This document shows, piece by piece, positions 33,783 to 45,250 of a stretch of 53,837 nt of DNA (the stretch's first letter is position 1; each line of letters opens with the position of its first letter). The DNA lies in the NCBI GenBank assembly GCA_001830045.1, contig MIDA01000030.1:1-53837 (forward strand). The letters are read 5' to 3'. Origin of the DNA: Tenericutes bacterium RIFOXYA12_FULL_35_10. GTDB lineage: Bacteria > Bacillota_I > Bacilli_A > Acholeplasmatales > Acholeplasmataceae. The notes under the pieces are model-generated. The model had not been told where the DNA came from, ran no database searches, and saw nothing but the letters and a program-made list of their open reading frames with translations. The position numbers and the translations under genes are program-made.

Positions 33783-34868
33783 ATGAAGGGAGTCGCATTT
33801 CCACATGTTAAGGAAAAGCTAAACAAGAAAATGAAACAAAACGTATTTGATGACTTTGCACCTCGTATTTTAAAACTTTATCATGAAAATCAAGATGAAT
33901 TTTGGGATGCTGTGATGACTCCTTTTTTGGCAGATAGTAACTTAACAACATTATTTAAATATCGCAAAATTGGGCTCGAATTAATGAGCTTGTTTTCCGA
34001 GATAGATCGTGAAAGAATACGCTTCTTATCAGAATATTCAACATCATTCGAATTTAATTTAAGCAAGTGGAAAAGTCTGTTGAAAAAAGAAGAATACTTC
34101 AAAGACGCATATCCAGTCTATGCCTTTTTAGTGATATGGATGGATCATATGAAGATGAACGATCATTTATCACGCTTTGGTAATTTGCTAAGGTCTGTGG
34201 TTTACGGAATTGCAGGTTATGGTATTTTGGATGTCATTGTTGATGACAAACAGTTCTCCCCTGTTGAACTGTTGACCTCTTTGATGCTTGTTGCTGAATA
34301 TGAGACACTCATCTTAAAAACATTTGGAGTGAATCAAACAAATCTAGATATTTTACATCATATTAGAGATCAATTTCTTCGATCTGAAATTAAAGAAAAA
34401 TTTACAAGGGGAAACAGTTCTCCGTATAAAAAAGGATTTCCTATTGAATGCGGATTCAAAGCTGCGCACTTACTTACTCCATTTATGTTGAGCTTAGAAC
34501 ATTTAGGTAAATCGGCTAATATTGATCCATATTTTGAGGTTTTCTTTTTGTTTGGTGCTGTTATTCAGATTTTAGATGATTTAAAAGATATAGAAGATGA
34601 TTTATCCATTGGACATTTTTCATACATTACACTTGGTAGTGATGTTATTGAATGGCATAAAAAAGGTATGAAGCCAAAAGATATGGTTAAAATGTTATGG
34701 GAAGACAAACAACGCATTCATCAACTTTTTGGTGAATGCAAAGATATGATTAGAAAATCAAGAATGATTTTGAAACAGTTGGAAGATCCCTATCTTGAGA
34801 AAATAGTCTATGTTACTGAATTACGTCTTGAGTCATATTTTAGAAAAGAATTTAAACTAGCTTTATAA
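33783..34868 (+). CDS. possible divergent isoprenoid-synthase-fold protein
   Basis: All-helical protein with DILDVIVDD-like and ILDDLKDIEDD acidic motifs. Confidence 0.45.
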   Translation: MKGVAFPHVKEKLNKKMKQNVFDDFAPRILKLYHENQDEFWDAVMTPFLADSNLTTLFKYRKIGLELMSLFSEIDRERIRFLSEYSTSFEFNLSKWKSLLKKEEYFKDAYPVYAFLVIWMDHMKMNDHLSRFGNLLRSVVYGIAGYGILDVIVDDKQFSPVELLTSLMLVAEYETLILKTFGVNQTNLDILHHIRDQFLRSEIKEKFTRGNSSPYKKGFPIECGFKAAHLLTPFMLSLEHLGKSANIDPYFEVFFLFGAVIQILDDLKDIEDDLSIGHFSYITLGSDVIEWHKKGMKPKDMVKMLWEDKQRIHQLFGECKDMIRKSRMILKQLEDPYLEKIVYVTELRLESYFRKEFKLAL

Positions 34869-34896
34869 AAAACAGTCCAAATTAATGGACTGTTTT
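34869..34896. terminator. bidirectional terminator overlapping the 3' end of asd
   Basis: AAAACAGTCCA...TGGACTGTTTT; right arm encodes the last codons of asd (KTVH*). Confidence 0.85.
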
Positions 34897-35904
34897 ATAT
34901 GCTTTTAAGGAATTTTCGTTGGTCAAAAGTTCAAGAATTTGAATGGCGTTGGTTGCTGCACCTTTTCTGATGTTATCAGCAACAACAAACATATTTAATC
35001 CAGATTCGAGTGACTGATCTCTTCTAATTCTTCCGACAAAGACTTCATCTTTTTGATTCACGATGATGGGCATCGGATATTTAAGTTCTTTCGGATCATC
35101 ATAGAGGATGACACCTTGAGACTTAGAGAGTAAATCTTTGAGTTCAGTAAGATCATAAGGTTTTTCAAATTCAACGTTGATTGACTCACTGTGGCCATTA
35201 ACCACGGGTACTCTGACTGCGGTTGCAGAAATCTTTAAGTTAGGAAGACCCATAATTTTACGCATTTCAAAGATCATTTTTTCTTCTTCCTTAGTATTAC
35301 CACTTTCCATAAAGACATCGATATGAGGTAAAACGTTTTGATGGATTTGGTAAGGAAACTTTGTGGTCTCACCTGTTTTGAGTTGATGTTCTAAATCATA
35401 AATGCCGTTAATGCCAGAACCACTCACTGCTTGATAAGTGGAAATGACAACTCTTTTCAAGTGATAGGCTTCATGAAGCGGTTTTAATGCAACTACAGCT
35501 TGAATGGTTGAACAGTTAGGATTGGCAATGATGTAATCATGTTTAAATGCATCTTCAGGATTAACCTCAGGAACAACTAAAGGCACATCAGAATCCATTC
35601 TAAAATGACTTGAGTTATCGATGACTATTGTATGATTCTTTTTGAAAAGAGGTGCGAATACTTTAGATACGGTTGCACCTGCACTAAAGAGTGCGTAATC
35701 TACGGGATGTGAATTGATGTTATCTTCAGTTAATGCAATAACGACACGATCACTGCCTTTGAAAGAGATGATCTGTCCTGCACTTTTATGTGATGCAAAC
35801 AAAACAAGTTCTTGAATGGGAATGTTTCTTTCAGATAGAACTTCTAAAAATTTTCTTCCAACAACACCGGTTGCACCAACGATAGCTAAAGATATGGGTT
35901 TCAT
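34882..35904 (-). CDS. asd: aspartate-semialdehyde dehydrogenase
   Basis: AIVGATGVVGRKFLEVL; NPNCSTIQ active-site Cys; VPVVNGHSESINVEF. Confidence 0.95.
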   Translation of the reverse strand: MKPISLAIVGATGVVGRKFLEVLSERNIPIQELVLFASHKSAGQIISFKGSDRVVIALTEDNINSHPVDYALFSAGATVSKVFAPLFKKNHTIVIDNSSHFRMDSDVPLVVPEVNPEDAFKHDYIIANPNCSTIQAVVALKPLHEAYHLKRVVISTYQAVSGSGINGIYDLEHQLKTGETTKFPYQIHQNVLPHIDVFMESGNTKEEEKMIFEMRKIMGLPNLKISATAVRVPVVNGHSESINVEFEKPYDLTELKDLLSKSQGVILYDDPKELKYPMPIIVNQKDEVFVGRIRRDQSLESGLNMFVVADNIRKGAATNAIQILELLTNENSLKAYKTVH

Positions 35905-37232
35905 CGTTCATGGTCCTCCCTAACAAATTCGTTATAGACCGCATTGATCGCGTATTCGTAATCGATATCATCAACACCGATCACGATGTTTGTCCCATTT
36001 GAACCGTAATCAATCATTCTTAAGGTAATGTTGGTATTGACAAGGGCACTAAAGAGTTTGAGCATGTTGTATTTATTGGCCATTAAGTTTCTTCCAACAA
36101 TCGAAATAAGCGAGATATTTTCTAAGACTTCAACGGTATCTGGTTTCATCGTTTTTTTGATTTGGTTGATTAAGGTTTCTCTTTTGTCACCAGTTAAATA
36201 CTTTGATTCAATCATCATCGAAAATGTATCGGTTCCACTTGGGAAATGTTCGACTTGGATATCAAGTTTTTCACAAAAGGATAAGACCTTTCTGTCAAAA
36301 CCAGGGGTTTCATCCATAAGGTGTTTTTCAATGATAATTAAGGTGAAGTTATTTAAACCTGCAATACCTGTAATGACATTTTTACTCTTACTAGCTGGTA
36401 CATAATCATAAATAAATGTTCCAGGTGAACTTGGGTTAAATGTGTTTCTTGCATTAATGGGAATACCTTCTTTTGAAACTGGGTAGAATGTATCACTATG
36501 GATGACACTCGCACCCATAAAAGATAATGCACGAAGCTCTTTATAGGTCATCATATCGATTAAATGTGGGTTTTCAACAATTCTGGGATCACACATTAAA
36601 AAACCATCAATATCAGACCAGTTTTCATAGACTTTTGCAAACACCGCTCTTGAAATGAGTGCACCCGTAACATCTGCTCCACCACGTGAAAGAAGCTTAA
36701 TATCACCTCTAGGGTTTGCACCATAAAAACCACTGATCACCACATATTCTTTATGCTTTAAAGCTTTCCGTGCTGTTTTATTAGTTAACTGATAATCGAC
36801 TTTAGAGCCTTTGAAACGAATCAAATCTTTGGCATCAACAAATTCAAAACCTAAGACATCTGCTAAGATCATCGCAGATAAATATTCACCACGAGAAACA
36901 ATGAATTCAACTGTTTCTTCATAAAGCATTTCTTTGAATATTTGATCTAAGACTGTTTCAATAGAGAAAGATACATTCAATCCAAATGCAATTTCTATGA
37001 ATCTTTGTTTAACAAGTTCATAAGTAGCTGATGTTTGACTATCTAAAATTTCATCAGCAACCTTATATAAGAGATCAGTGACTTTAATATCGTCACTAAA
37101 TCTCTTTCCAGGTGCTGAAACAACGATGAACTTGCGTTCTTCGTCGTTCTTTACAATATCTATTACTTTTTTAATGGTTTCAGATGAAGCCATGGAAGTT
37201 CCGCCAAATTTGGCGACTTTAATTTTGCTCAT
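35901..37232 (-). CDS. aspartate kinase
   Basis: KVAKFGGTSMASSETI; SRGGADVTGALISRA; C-terminal ACT domains. Confidence 0.93.
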   Translation of the reverse strand: MSKIKVAKFGGTSMASSETIKKVIDIVKNDEERKFIVVSAPGKRFSDDIKVTDLLYKVADEILDSQTSATYELVKQRFIEIAFGLNVSFSIETVLDQIFKEMLYEETVEFIVSRGEYLSAMILADVLGFEFVDAKDLIRFKGSKVDYQLTNKTARKALKHKEYVVISGFYGANPRGDIKLLSRGGADVTGALISRAVFAKVYENWSDIDGFLMCDPRIVENPHLIDMMTYKELRALSFMGASVIHSDTFYPVSKEGIPINARNTFNPSSPGTFIYDYVPASKSKNVITGIAGLNNFTLIIIEKHLMDETPGFDRKVLSFCEKLDIQVEHFPSGTDTFSMMIESKYLTGDKRETLINQIKKTMKPDTVEVLENISLISIVGRNLMANKYNMLKLFSALVNTNITLRMIDYGSNGTNIVIGVDDIDYEYAINAVYNEFVREDHER

Positions 37233-37240
37233 AGGGTTTC

Positions 37241-38371
37241 CTAACTAAGCTTATGCTTAAAATCTAAATAATCAAATGACTTAATCAGGATATCTTCGCC
37301 AGAGAGATTTCTTAAGTAAATCGAGGGAAGTGGAATACCATTGAATGTATTATTTTTAACCATGGTATAGAGTGCCATATCTTCAAAGACGATACGACTG
37401 CCGATTTCTAATGGGTTTTCAAAATAGTATTCACCAATGTTATCACCCGTTAAGCAGGTGTATCCTGCTAATCGGTAATGATAATCGCTTTTTTTGACTG
37501 TATCTTGAACGGGAGGTGTAAAAGGCATTTCGATCACATCAGGCATATGACAGGTTGCTGATGTATCTAAAATCGCGATTGCCATATCATTTTTAACGAT
37601 ATCTAAAACTTGTGCAACAAAGAATCCTGTGTTTAATACGATGCCTTCACCTGGTTCTAAGTAAACCTCTAGATTGTATGTCTCTTTATAGTATTTAATG
37701 AGTTTAACGAGTAAGTCGATATCGTAATCATGTAGTGCTAAATGGTGTCCACCACCAAAGTTGATCCATTTAAGGTTATGGAGATATTTACCAAATTTTT
37801 CTTCAACCACTTTAAGTGTAATCTCTAAAGCATCAGCATTTTGTTGACATAGTGTATGGAAATGGAGTCCTGAAATATAAGGTAAGATGGATTCATCAAA
37901 ATCGATGAGTCTTGTTCCCATGCGTGATGTAGGTGAACAGGGGTCATACATGCCGTGACTTTGGGTAGAGATTTCAGGGTTGATGCGAAGTCCTAATGTT
38001 TTTCCTCTTTTTAAAGCGATGTCTTTAAAATGTCTGAGCTGCGAAACAGAATTAAAAACAATGTGATCTGCATAATCCAAGATTTCCATAAAGTCTTCAT
38101 CTTTGTATGCAGGTGCGTAGACATGAACCTCTTTACCAAAGTGTTCAAAGCCTAATCTTGCTTCATAAAGACCACTTGCTGTTGTCCCATCTAAATATTT
38201 AGACATTAAAGGATACAAGCTATACATTGAAAAAGCCTTTTGAGCCAAAAGGATTTTACAACCTGAACGATCTTTAATGTTTTTAATGATCTCTAAATTC
38301 TTTTGCAGGAGTGATTCATCGATTAAGTAATAAGGTGTCTTTAAGTTAGGATTAATCTTCATAGTCTTCAA
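37241..38371 (-). CDS. nspC: carboxynorspermidine decarboxylase
   Basis: TPYYLIDESLLQKNLEIIKNIKDRSGCKILLAQKAFSMYSLYPLM; TTASGLYEARLG; INFGGGHHL. Confidence 0.92.
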   Translation of the reverse strand: MKTMKINPNLKTPYYLIDESLLQKNLEIIKNIKDRSGCKILLAQKAFSMYSLYPLMSKYLDGTTASGLYEARLGFEHFGKEVHVYAPAYKDEDFMEILDYADHIVFNSVSQLRHFKDIALKRGKTLGLRINPEISTQSHGMYDPCSPTSRMGTRLIDFDESILPYISGLHFHTLCQQNADALEITLKVVEEKFGKYLHNLKWINFGGGHHLALHDYDIDLLVKLIKYYKETYNLEVYLEPGEGIVLNTGFFVAQVLDIVKNDMAIAILDTSATCHMPDVIEMPFTPPVQDTVKKSDYHYRLAGYTCLTGDNIGEYYFENPLEIGSRIVFEDMALYTMVKNNTFNGIPLPSIYLRNLSGEDILIKSFDYLDFKHKLS

Positions 38372-39563
38372 TGAAAACTGGATTAAAGTTTTCTTTCCAT
38401 GGGAGACCCCATTTATTTAGCATATCCATAAATGGATCTGGATCAAATTGTTCCATATTGAAGACGCCTGCTCCGCTCCAAATGCCTTGAACCATTAATG
38501 CTGCACCAATCATTGCAGGTACACCTGTGGTGTATGCAATCGCTTGTGAACCCGTTTCTTTATAAGCTTCTTCATGGTCGCACATGTTATAAACATAGTA
38601 TGAAACAGGTTTAGAATCTTTATGTCCTTTGATGATACAACCGATATTTGTTTTACCTTTCGTACGTGGTCCTAAACTTGCTGGATCTGGTAGTATTGCA
38701 CGTAAGAACTGAATGGGGACGATTTCTTGACCTTGGAATATGATAGGTTTAACAGAAGTCATACCGACATTTTCTAAAACTCGCAAGTGTGTTAAGTAGC
38801 TTTGACCAAAACTCATAAAGAAACGAATTCTTTTGGCTTCAGGGATGAATTTTGCTAAGGATTCGATCTCTTCATGGTACATGAGATACATGTCCTTAGA
38901 ACCGATACCATCAAGCATATATTCATGTTTTCTTGAGAGTGCTGGAATGGTTACCCATTTTCCGTTTTCATAGTAACGACCTGGTAGGGTTACTTCACGG
39001 ATGTTGATCTCAGGATTAAAGTTAGTTGCAAAAGGATATCCATGATCGCCACCATTCGCATCTAAGATGTCAATGGTATCGATGGTATCAAAATAATGCT
39101 TTTTCGCATACATTGAAAAGACACTGGTGACGCCTGGATCAAAGCCAGATCCAAGAAGTGCCATCACACCAGCTTCTTTAAACTTTTCATGATAAACCCA
39201 CTGAGTTCCATATTCGAAACCTGCTTGTTCTCTAATCTCTGCACATGCAGTATCTAAGTAGTGTGTTTTTGTTTCAATACATGCTTCCATAATCGGTATG
39301 TTTTGATAGGGTAGGGCAACATTGACAACGATATCAGGATGATATTTTTGAATTAAAGATATGACATTGTCTTTGTTGTCAGCATCAACTTCCTCAGCAA
39401 TAACCTTGATGTTTTTGCTGTTTAATTTTGATGCAAAATGCTCACATTTTGATTTGGTTCTGCTAGCAATAACCATTTCTTTGAATACTTCATGATTTTG
39501 AGCAATTTTTTGAATGGCAACGGATGCAACTGCACCACAACCAATGACTAAAACTTTCGACAT
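38352..39563 (-). CDS. saccharopine dehydrogenase-family carboxynorspermidine dehydrogenase
   Basis: VLVIGCGAVASVAIQKIAQ; ALLGSGFDPGVTSVFSMYAKKHYFDTIDTIDILDANGGDHGYPFATNFNPEINIREVT; adjacent to nspC. Confidence 0.92.
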   Translation of the reverse strand: MSKVLVIGCGAVASVAIQKIAQNHEVFKEMVIASRTKSKCEHFASKLNSKNIKVIAEEVDADNKDNVISLIQKYHPDIVVNVALPYQNIPIMEACIETKTHYLDTACAEIREQAGFEYGTQWVYHEKFKEAGVMALLGSGFDPGVTSVFSMYAKKHYFDTIDTIDILDANGGDHGYPFATNFNPEINIREVTLPGRYYENGKWVTIPALSRKHEYMLDGIGSKDMYLMYHEEIESLAKFIPEAKRIRFFMSFGQSYLTHLRVLENVGMTSVKPIIFQGQEIVPIQFLRAILPDPASLGPRTKGKTNIGCIIKGHKDSKPVSYYVYNMCDHEEAYKETGSQAIAYTTGVPAMIGAALMVQGIWSGAGVFNMEQFDPDPFMDMLNKWGLPWKENFNPVFIEDYED

Positions 39564-39595
39564 AAAAATCCTCCTTTATAGTAATTAGAGTTATC

Positions 39596-39646
39596 AAACA
39601 AAAATCCAATGCTAACCAAAAGAAAACTCTGGCTATCATTGGATTT
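39596..39646 (-). terminator. leader terminator upstream of the polyamine operon (attenuator candidate)
   Basis: Minus strand AAATCCAATGaTAGCCAGAG...TTTTGGTTAGCATTGGATTTTTG. Confidence 0.75.
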
Positions 39647-39703
39647 ATCCTTTAGACCCTAATAGTTCAAACGACCCCATATTTCTATGAGTGTGTCAAT
39701 AAA

Positions 39704-39731
39704 ATAATACTATAAAACAACAAAAAGTCAA
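39704..39731 (-). promoter_or_regulatory. sigma-70-type promoter for the polyamine operon
   Basis: Minus strand TTGACT, 16-nt spacer, TATTAT. Confidence 0.65.
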
Positions 39732-44053: not shown

Positions 44054-45250
44054 CTAAGGATAGTGGGAAGACTCGAACTCATATTTCATCGTCGCACCAC
44101 AAGGACATAATAAAGGATCAAACTTGAATGTTTGATGGATAAGGTTTTTCCATTTTAAAGGAACCAAGGATTTAAAATGCATTTTCTTCTTATAATTTGG
44201 GATAAATCTTCTACCTTTGGAAGCATAGACTCCATAATAACGGATCATTTTAAATTGGTGTTCAGGAATGTGCACAATCAATTTCTTAATGAATTCGTAG
44301 ATGTCCTCAGTGACAGTAATTGTCCCACACTTTTCTTCATCAGGCAGAAGATCATCCTCGTGAGGTTCATAGGTGTAGGTAATCTGCCTTTTGACATGAT
44401 CGACATCCTCGATGCGGGATTCAGCCATGACGGGTCTTCCTGTGTATCTCAGGACGTATTCAATGAGACCTTTTTGAGATTTAACATCTGTGCTTGGACC
44501 ATAGACATAAAAGCCATTCTCTTTTGAGGTATAAAGCGCACACTTCTCTTTATAGAACCCGTGACCGAGTTCTTGATGGAGTAAGTCTAGAAGTGTCTTC
44601 ATAAAGGATTTTCTCAAGAGTTCAAAGTTAAAATAAGTTAAGGGTTTAAATTCACCGGATTTATTAATCATCCCTTCGGAGACGAGAGCATGAATATGGC
44701 AGTTGAAATTCAAAGCTCTTCCAAACGTATGGCATACCAAGACATATCCAAGTTTCCAACGTTTTGATTTTCCGTGTTTAAGCGATAAATATTGAAGCGT
44801 CTGATTCACGGCTTCAAACAATATATTGAGTCTTAGACGGTCTTGTCTAAAATAGATTCTAAGTGAGTCAGGTATCGTAAACGTGATATGTCTATGGGGG
44901 CAATCCATCAATATATTCGAGGTGAATACTGCACGTTGCTTGGCGTATTTGACCCCACAACTGTTACAAAAGCGAGATTTACAGGAGTTATAGACAACCA
45001 TAAAGTTATCACAGTTTGGACAACTGAAAAAAGAATAACCAAGATCTGGTGTTCTACACTTCATCATTCTTTCAACGTTAGCAAAGACAACGGGTCTTAT
45101 GTTCAATTTAGGATTGTCTAAAAGAAAGTCAGACCAATAGTCTCTAAAGATATCAACAATAGTATATCCTTGACGATTAATTTTAAGATTGGAATGTCTA
45201 AGATATTCATTGACAATGTTTACAGGATATGTGTTCACCATCTCACCCAC
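44054..45250 (-). CDS. IS91-family (Y1/HUH-type) transposase
   Basis: N-terminal zinc-binding CPNCDNFMVVYNSCKSRFCNSCG; HRHITFTIP; FNCHIHALVSEG; YVLRYTGRPVMAESRI. Confidence 0.9.
   Translation of the reverse strand: MGEMVNTYPVNIVNEYLRHSNLKINRQGYTIVDIFRDYWSDFLLDNPKLNIRPVVFANVERMMKCRTPDLGYSFFSCPNCDNFMVVYNSCKSRFCNSCGVKYAKQRAVFTSNILMDCPHRHITFTIPDSLRIYFRQDRLRLNILFEAVNQTLQYLSLKHGKSKRWKLGYVLVCHTFGRALNFNCHIHALVSEGMINKSGEFKPLTYFNFELLRKSFMKTLLDLLHQELGHGFYKEKCALYTSKENGFYVYGPSTDVKSQKGLIEYVLRYTGRPVMAESRIEDVDHVKRQITYTYEPHEDDLLPDEEKCGTITVTEDIYEFIKKLIVHIPEHQFKMIRYYGVYASKGRRFIPNYKKKMHFKSLVPLKWKNLIHQTFKFDPLLCPCGATMKYEFESSHYP

Follow-up and report, generated by a model that had tools for sequence, protein, structure and literature searches.

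In the c-di-GMP-I (GEMM-I) riboswitch Vc2, the ligand is contacted by G20, A47 and C92, equivalent to G11, A38 and C81 in Bc1 (PMC11218506). A47 is conserved throughout class I, and RNAs mutated at A47 do not bind c-di-GMP (PMC9049102). The C81A mutant of Cd1 does not bind (PMC9262584), and C81 of Bc1 corresponds to Vc2 C92 (PMC11218506). Variant riboswitches reveal how one RNA fold gains new specificities; the ligands of most known variants are chemically similar to that of the parent (reviewed in PMC7266159). A cGAMP class of GEMM RNAs has been described (PMC7266159). In it, A47 and P1 are retained and position 20 differs. The Rfam c-di-GMP-I variant families GGC and UAU are named in PMC12452182 and PMC9943018. 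These families have the GEMM-I frame with altered binding-site bases.

We analyzed a stretch of 53,837 nucleotides (the window) from an Acholeplasmataceae genome, in which a leader upstream of a polyamine operon on the minus strand had been noted as a candidate metabolite-responsive attenuator of unrecognized class, with lysine, SAM and guanine among the conceivable ligands. In the Rfam search that this original prediction asked for, the leader at 39697-39627 (minus strand) matched c-di-GMP-I (RF01051) at 35.3 bits, marginally above the cut-off of 35. RF01051 was the sole family reaching its cut-off in the window among 4227 Rfam families scanned. At E up to 1, none of these families gave a SAM match for the leader. 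Other matches (mir-5045, rimP, bglG and snoR77Y; 17-18 bits) were rejected as far below their cut-offs. All 11 leaders tested matched RF01051 in register (28.6-39.5 bits), five of them above the cut-off, and it was the best match in every scan with clan competition. A chance match was rejected on the strength of this common register. The suggested lysine, SAM and guanine riboswitch types failed, the leader being a derivative of the GEMM-I fold.

Twelve leaders, including that of the window, were assembled from orthologous genes for carboxy(nor)spermidine dehydrogenase (CANSDH) and then by searching with a model, R1. Orthologous CANSDH genes yielded the leaders of UBA5769 (L012), M0117 (L013), Zod (L014), UBA6150 (L015) and MO-XQ (L017) as well as L019 and L020; model R1 added those of G074 (L072), G693 and G658 (L088, L089) and G904 (L133). 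They are spread over several genera of Bacilli-like bacteria. The aptamer (GACACAC...CAGAG; 39627-39697, minus strand) is an RNA of ~71 nt with 50 invariant columns across the 12 leaders, and scored 101.8 bits with R1 in the window. R1 scores were bimodal, with variants at 90-104 bits and other c-di-GMP-I copies at 33-51 bits. Every variant leader (12/12) lies directly 5' of a CANSDH gene. No variant outside this context was found in overlapping genome sets at the level of order (161 genomes), class (395), phylum (369) and second order (245 and 280), and none was found in viral contigs or plasmids. The leaders form a tight, distinct family derived from GEMM-I, rather than sharing a chance resemblance. 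Lack of conservation at orthologous operons had been set beforehand as a refuting test; with 12 conserved orthologous leaders, the refutation failed.

Two further leaders located 5' of CANSDH genes (L016 and L022; protein about 84% identical) have kept the promoter and lost the aptamer; we regard these close relatives as having lost the switch naturally. The aptamer is replaced in L016 by a short AACCAGCAATGGTT-CATTTTT hairpin and in L022 by a AGUCUAAAG/CUUUGACU hairpin that is possibly an aptamer remnant.

The aptamers are 83-94% identical, compared to 17-54% identity at fourfold-degenerate sites of CANSDH (in the pairs compared), indicating that the RNA sequence is under strong selection. 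Across the 12 leaders, 100% of the cells of the secondary structure are paired, and two-sided changes occur in four pairs, all in P2. The covariation score was 0.220, as against 0.143 when shuffled and at most 0.061 with the partners slid. Pairs in P3 mostly never vary, and this helix rests on homology, not covariation.

Extended P2 (39670-39697, minus strand) consists of GACAC and CUCAUA, a GAAA loop, UAUGGG and GU/GUU, as obtained with RNAalifold and supported by covarying pairs. Its tetraloop occupies 39685-39682, C39673 is flipped out, and the first pair, G39697-U39670, sits at the positions of G20 and A47; this column pair (3-30) reads GU, GC or AU across the family. The J2/3 linker UGAA (39666-39669, minus strand; NGAA in the family), whose G, A and A are invariant in 12/12 leaders, could possibly supply new binding-site residues, for which there are no binding data. 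P3 (39627-39665, minus strand; GGGUCUAAAGG...UCCAAUGAUAGCC), assigned by alignment and homology, carries the tetraloop receptor and the bulged A39634 and G39633. The latter corresponds to Vc2 G83 and is the partner of C39673 (C44). This long-range pair has C and G at the two columns in 12/12 leaders and, being invariant, receives no support from covariation. The GAAA loop and the CUAA/AUG receptor are likewise invariant (12/12); their docking is inferred, not probed. By sequence and homology, the GEMM-I frame is kept, with the GAAA-capped P2, the long-range C-G pair and the P3 receptor all present.

The c-di-GMP site itself differs. P1 is absent, because only 7-8 nt separate the end of the -10 box from ACACAC, so that the transcript would begin at the aptamer (start inferred, 11/11 leaders). 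In a flank-pairing test for P1 the variants were weaker than canonical copies overall, but the ranges overlap. The base 3' of the G45-C46 stem, at the A47 position, is U or C in 12/12 leaders and pairs with position 20 as G-U (8 leaders), G-C (2) or A-U (2). Note that the Rfam alignment of J2/3 is not unique, an alternative giving G, so the base replacing A47 is not certain. The AAA/GAC internal loop has become ACA/GUC, which permits A-U and C-G pairs and flips out the C that takes part in the long-range pair. No base 3' of CAGAG is conserved in the 12 leaders, and the C92-type contact is not kept. Position 20 is G in 10 leaders and A in 2, with the remaining pocket not kept; the cGAMP (GEMM-Ib) criterion, an A there in an otherwise intact GEMM pocket, is not satisfied by the variant. 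We conclude that the c-di-GMP binding site has likely been rebuilt in this family, an inference from sequence alone that is qualified by the non-unique J2/3 alignment. The ordinary c-di-GMP-I copies in the same genome have a short P3 without receptor, and the variant is therefore not a recent decay product of these copies.

The original prediction had placed a promoter, TTGACT-16-TATTAT, on the minus strand, and this held. The -35 element lies at 39731-39726 and the -10 element at 39709-39704 (promoter 39704-39731). A generic promoter scan of the region gave no excess (13 sites vs 21.4 expected). The promoter is supported despite this null scan by its identical placement, TTGAnn-16-TANNAT being found 7-8 nt 5' of the aptamer (ACACAC) in 11/11 leaders tested. 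Position 39697 is accordingly the inferred transcription start. At the other end of the leader, the Shine-Dalgarno sequence AGGAGG (39570-39575, minus strand) precedes the CANSDH ATG at 39563. Both the leader (39698-39564; z -4.8) and the segment 39660-39590 (z -5.1) fold more stably than dinucleotide shuffles, with 0/200 shuffles equally stable in either case.

The long hairpin predicted before the Shine-Dalgarno sequence also held. It is an intrinsic terminator (39597-39646, minus strand) with a left arm at 39646-39627, a loop at 39626-39622, a right arm at 39621-39602 and a U-rich tail extending to 39597. Its duplex energy is -21.7 kcal/mol, and 0/500 shuffles were as strong. The left arm is the 3' strand of P3, and this strand has the same double role in 10/12 leaders, where its consensus, UCC(A)AUGA(C/U)AGCCAG(A/G)G, has its complement in a downstream arm that precedes the U-run. 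Duplex energies range from -15 to -26 kcal/mol, with 0-12/500 shuffles as strong for the nine leaders shuffled (the tenth leader is L133). Aptamer and terminator are mutually exclusive because the P3 3' strand is common to both, which implies an ON switch, a direction inferred from sequence alone. The criteria for an intrinsic-terminator attenuator (a stable U-tailed hairpin and exclusive upstream pairing) are thus met in 10/12 leaders. L019 and L020 have no clear U-tailed terminator, the competitor being a weaker hairpin; an alternative involving pairing to the Shine-Dalgarno sequence is weak and suggestive in L020 only. The upstream segments proposed as competitors of the terminator (CTATTAGG, GGAT and ACTC) failed, the real competitor being the P3 5' strand, GGGUC...AAAGG. 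The repeated GGGTC that had been pointed out is present, but incidental: its second copy is the P3 5' strand and its first lies at the P2-J2/3 boundary. A metabolite-responsive attenuator remains the best reading, with a metabolite or signal ligand inferred in the absence of binding data.

The first gene of the operon encodes the carboxy(nor)spermidine dehydrogenase (CANSDH/CASDH; 38352-39563, minus strand), identified by PF03435 and PF16653; its match to NF043000 (carboxynorspermidine synthase-like) at 423 bits is below the cut-off of 800. It is followed on the same strand by carboxynorspermidine decarboxylase (NspC/CANSDC; 37241-38371; TIGR01047, 474.6 bits), aspartate kinase (35901-37232; NF006540, 444.8 bits) and aspartate-semialdehyde dehydrogenase (34882-35904; NF011456 and TIGR01296), all above cut-off. 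These four enzymes are those required to produce aspartate semialdehyde and convert it, by way of carboxy(nor)spermidine, into (nor)spermidine (pathway in PMC10413350). The same four-gene operon lies 3' of the leader in divergent genomes. Elsewhere in the window, a 361-aa ORF without Pfam or NCBIfam match (33783-34868, plus strand) is convergent with the operon, and an ORF at 44054-45250 (minus strand) resembles an IS91-type transposase, with zinc-finger and Y1-like motifs recognized by eye. G693 has a second CANSDH copy at a contig edge (C42:17-1069; L131), besides the copy led by the variant.

GGDEF proteins and diadenylate cyclase were counted in 11 carrier genomes (G904 was left out of the GGDEF count). 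GGDEF domains number 22 in the window genome, 17 in G017, 15 in G015, 20 in G073, 17 each in G074 and G160, and 18 in G501. The window genome also has four ordinary c-di-GMP-I copies at 49-63 bits. Zero GGDEF proteins were found in the carriers G502, G503, G658 and G693 (MAGs of unknown completeness), and these four have no c-di-GMP-I match besides the variant itself. Within the limit set by MAG completeness, the variant thus persists in genomes apparently not making c-di-GMP. Diadenylate cyclase (PF02457) is present in 9/11 carriers tested, including three of the four GGDEF-free ones, and c-di-AMP is therefore not excluded as a ligand. Two c-di-GMP-I copies in G501 (L092 and L102) read UAGCAAA, in which G20 is replaced by A, a feature of cAMP-GMP (GEMM-Ib) riboswitches that is unusual outside Deltaproteobacteria. 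Tandem ordinary c-di-GMP-I aptamers precede a gene for a secreted or membrane protein in G000 (contig C73:15010-15198; L003 and L004), and G073, G074, G017, G013 and G010 likewise have copies lying close together.

We propose that the leader is a GEMM-I-derived variant riboswitch with a rebuilt site that responds to a ligand other than c-di-GMP and induces the CANSDH-CANSDC-aspartokinase-ASD operon. This reading is likely, but there are no binding or transcription data. RNA polymerase would start at ~G39697, as inferred from promoter placement, giving an RNA without P1. By homology, P2 and P3 would dock side by side via the GAAA loop and the CUAA/AUG receptor, assisted by the C39673-G39633 pair. 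A ligand, probably bound at the GAC/GUU-NGAA junction, would stabilize this fold and keep the P3 3' strand UCCAAUGAUAGCCAGAG with GGGUC...AAAGG, and the operon would be transcribed. Without ligand, the downstream complement would take the P3 3' strand, forming the terminator and stopping transcription before the operon; the direction of switching is inferred. The likeliest ligand is either a metabolite from the substrate side of the pathway, i.e. putrescine, 1,3-diaminopropane or an intermediate derived from aspartate, or another nucleotide signal such as c-di-AMP, and we cannot choose between them. Restriction of the variant to one operon favors a pathway metabolite, and ON logic favors a substrate-side inducer, e.g. 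a diamine, over end-product feedback. A bolder reading is a new natural riboswitch class, built on the GEMM-I frame, in which a pathway metabolite (a diamine substrate, or an intermediate of carboxy-polyamine or aspartate type) switches the operon on; we advance it tentatively, as possible but less likely than not. The evidence for the variant riboswitch is limited to 12 sequences, with two-sided covariation confined to P2, and biosynthetic operons are not usually controlled by ON switches, which counts against the proposed riboswitch. In the openly licensed literature searched, we found no paper on a carboxynorspermidine riboswitch, or on riboswitches and c-di-GMP in Acholeplasma.

The alternative that survives best is that another nucleotide signal (c-di-AMP, cAMP-GMP or a linear dinucleotide) couples polyamines to the osmotic or K+ state. 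This is possible, and forms a sub-case of the proposed explanation, its strength referring to the type of ligand. In its favor, the known ligands of the GEMM-I scaffold are cyclic dinucleotides, diadenylate cyclase accompanies the variant in most carriers, and binding of c-di-AMP has been reported for a double mutant, G20A/C92U (PMC9049102). Against it, the stacking A47 and P1, which such ligands also use, are altered; diadenylate cyclase is widespread, making its presence unspecific; and second messengers have broad targets, in contrast to the single polyamine operon seen here. Alternatively, the leader may be a relic frame that today serves as a protein-binding site or as a fixed, ligand-free attenuator. 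The lack of a known ligand, the loss of P1 and the old pocket, and the retention of the promoter without aptamer in L016 and L022 speak for this view. We consider it unlikely, given about 50 invariant columns, including the unpaired J2/3 and receptor, against saturated synonymous sites; moreover, a simple attenuator needs no preserved tertiary contacts. An ordinary though divergent c-di-GMP-I riboswitch linking the c-di-GMP level to polyamine synthesis is likewise unlikely. In its favor, 5/11 leaders scanned pass the RF01051 cut-off, the window genome has GGDEF domains and proper c-di-GMP-I copies, and Vibrio shows a link between c-di-GMP and norspermidine (PMC8079147). However, P1 is missing, the U or C at the A47 position is paired to position 20, no 3' contact is conserved, and four genomes keep the variant without GGDEF proteins or other c-di-GMP-I copies. 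Finally, leader-peptide attenuation from a conserved AUG in CCAAUGAcAGCCAGAG (MTAR...) is all but excluded and was rejected: M-(T/I)-A-R begins the ORF in 11/11 translated leaders with AAAGG shortly upstream, but the ORFs diverge just past the aptamer and run for 6 to >25 codons, with no conserved peptide beyond the RNA motif and, as originally stated, no relevant amino-acid run, and AUGacAGCc belongs to the GEMM-I consensus, so that the RNA fold explains the AUG. In L012 only (leader 5' of 3001), the aptamer AUG shares the reading frame of CANSDH and would extend it at the N-terminus, a feature that is not conserved.

Compared with c-di-GMP-I RNAs (RF01051; Vc2, Cd1 and Bc1), the variant riboswitch shares the GAAA-looped P2, the P3 with CUAA/AUG receptor, the C44-G83-type pair and the order and spacing of elements. 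In contrast, it lacks P1, has an extended, fully paired lower P2 (ACA/GUC for AAA/GAC), pairs a U or C at the A47 position to position 20, has no conserved C92 region, and carries 1-nt insertions in J2/3 and P3. With respect to the GGC and UAU families, RF01051 and no other clan member was best for the variant in each scan, a result of clan competition and not of a direct scored comparison. The 3',3'-cGAMP GEMM riboswitch of pilM in Geobacter metallireducens resembles the variant in its ON logic with mutually exclusive aptamer and terminator (PMC9262584), and in being a specificity variant of the GEMM-I frame; the switching strand of the variant, however, is the P3 3' strand. The spermidine riboswitch, a SAM-I variant (PMC10853860), is likewise a rebuilt aptamer that precedes polyamine genes and acts on a terminator. 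It differs in its SAM-I scaffold, in being an OFF switch and in the other polyamine genes with which it is reported, whereas the variant described here is apparently an ON switch with a carboxy(nor)spermidine-pathway target. If our reading is correct, this RNA would provide a natural sensor for the alternative route to spermidine, the one used by most gut bacteria (PMC10413350), and in the bolder version a nucleotide-sensing fold would have been converted to sensing a small amine or amino acid. A pocket closed by a base pair, the missing P1 and the tie to a single operon would then amount to a larger change than in known variants.
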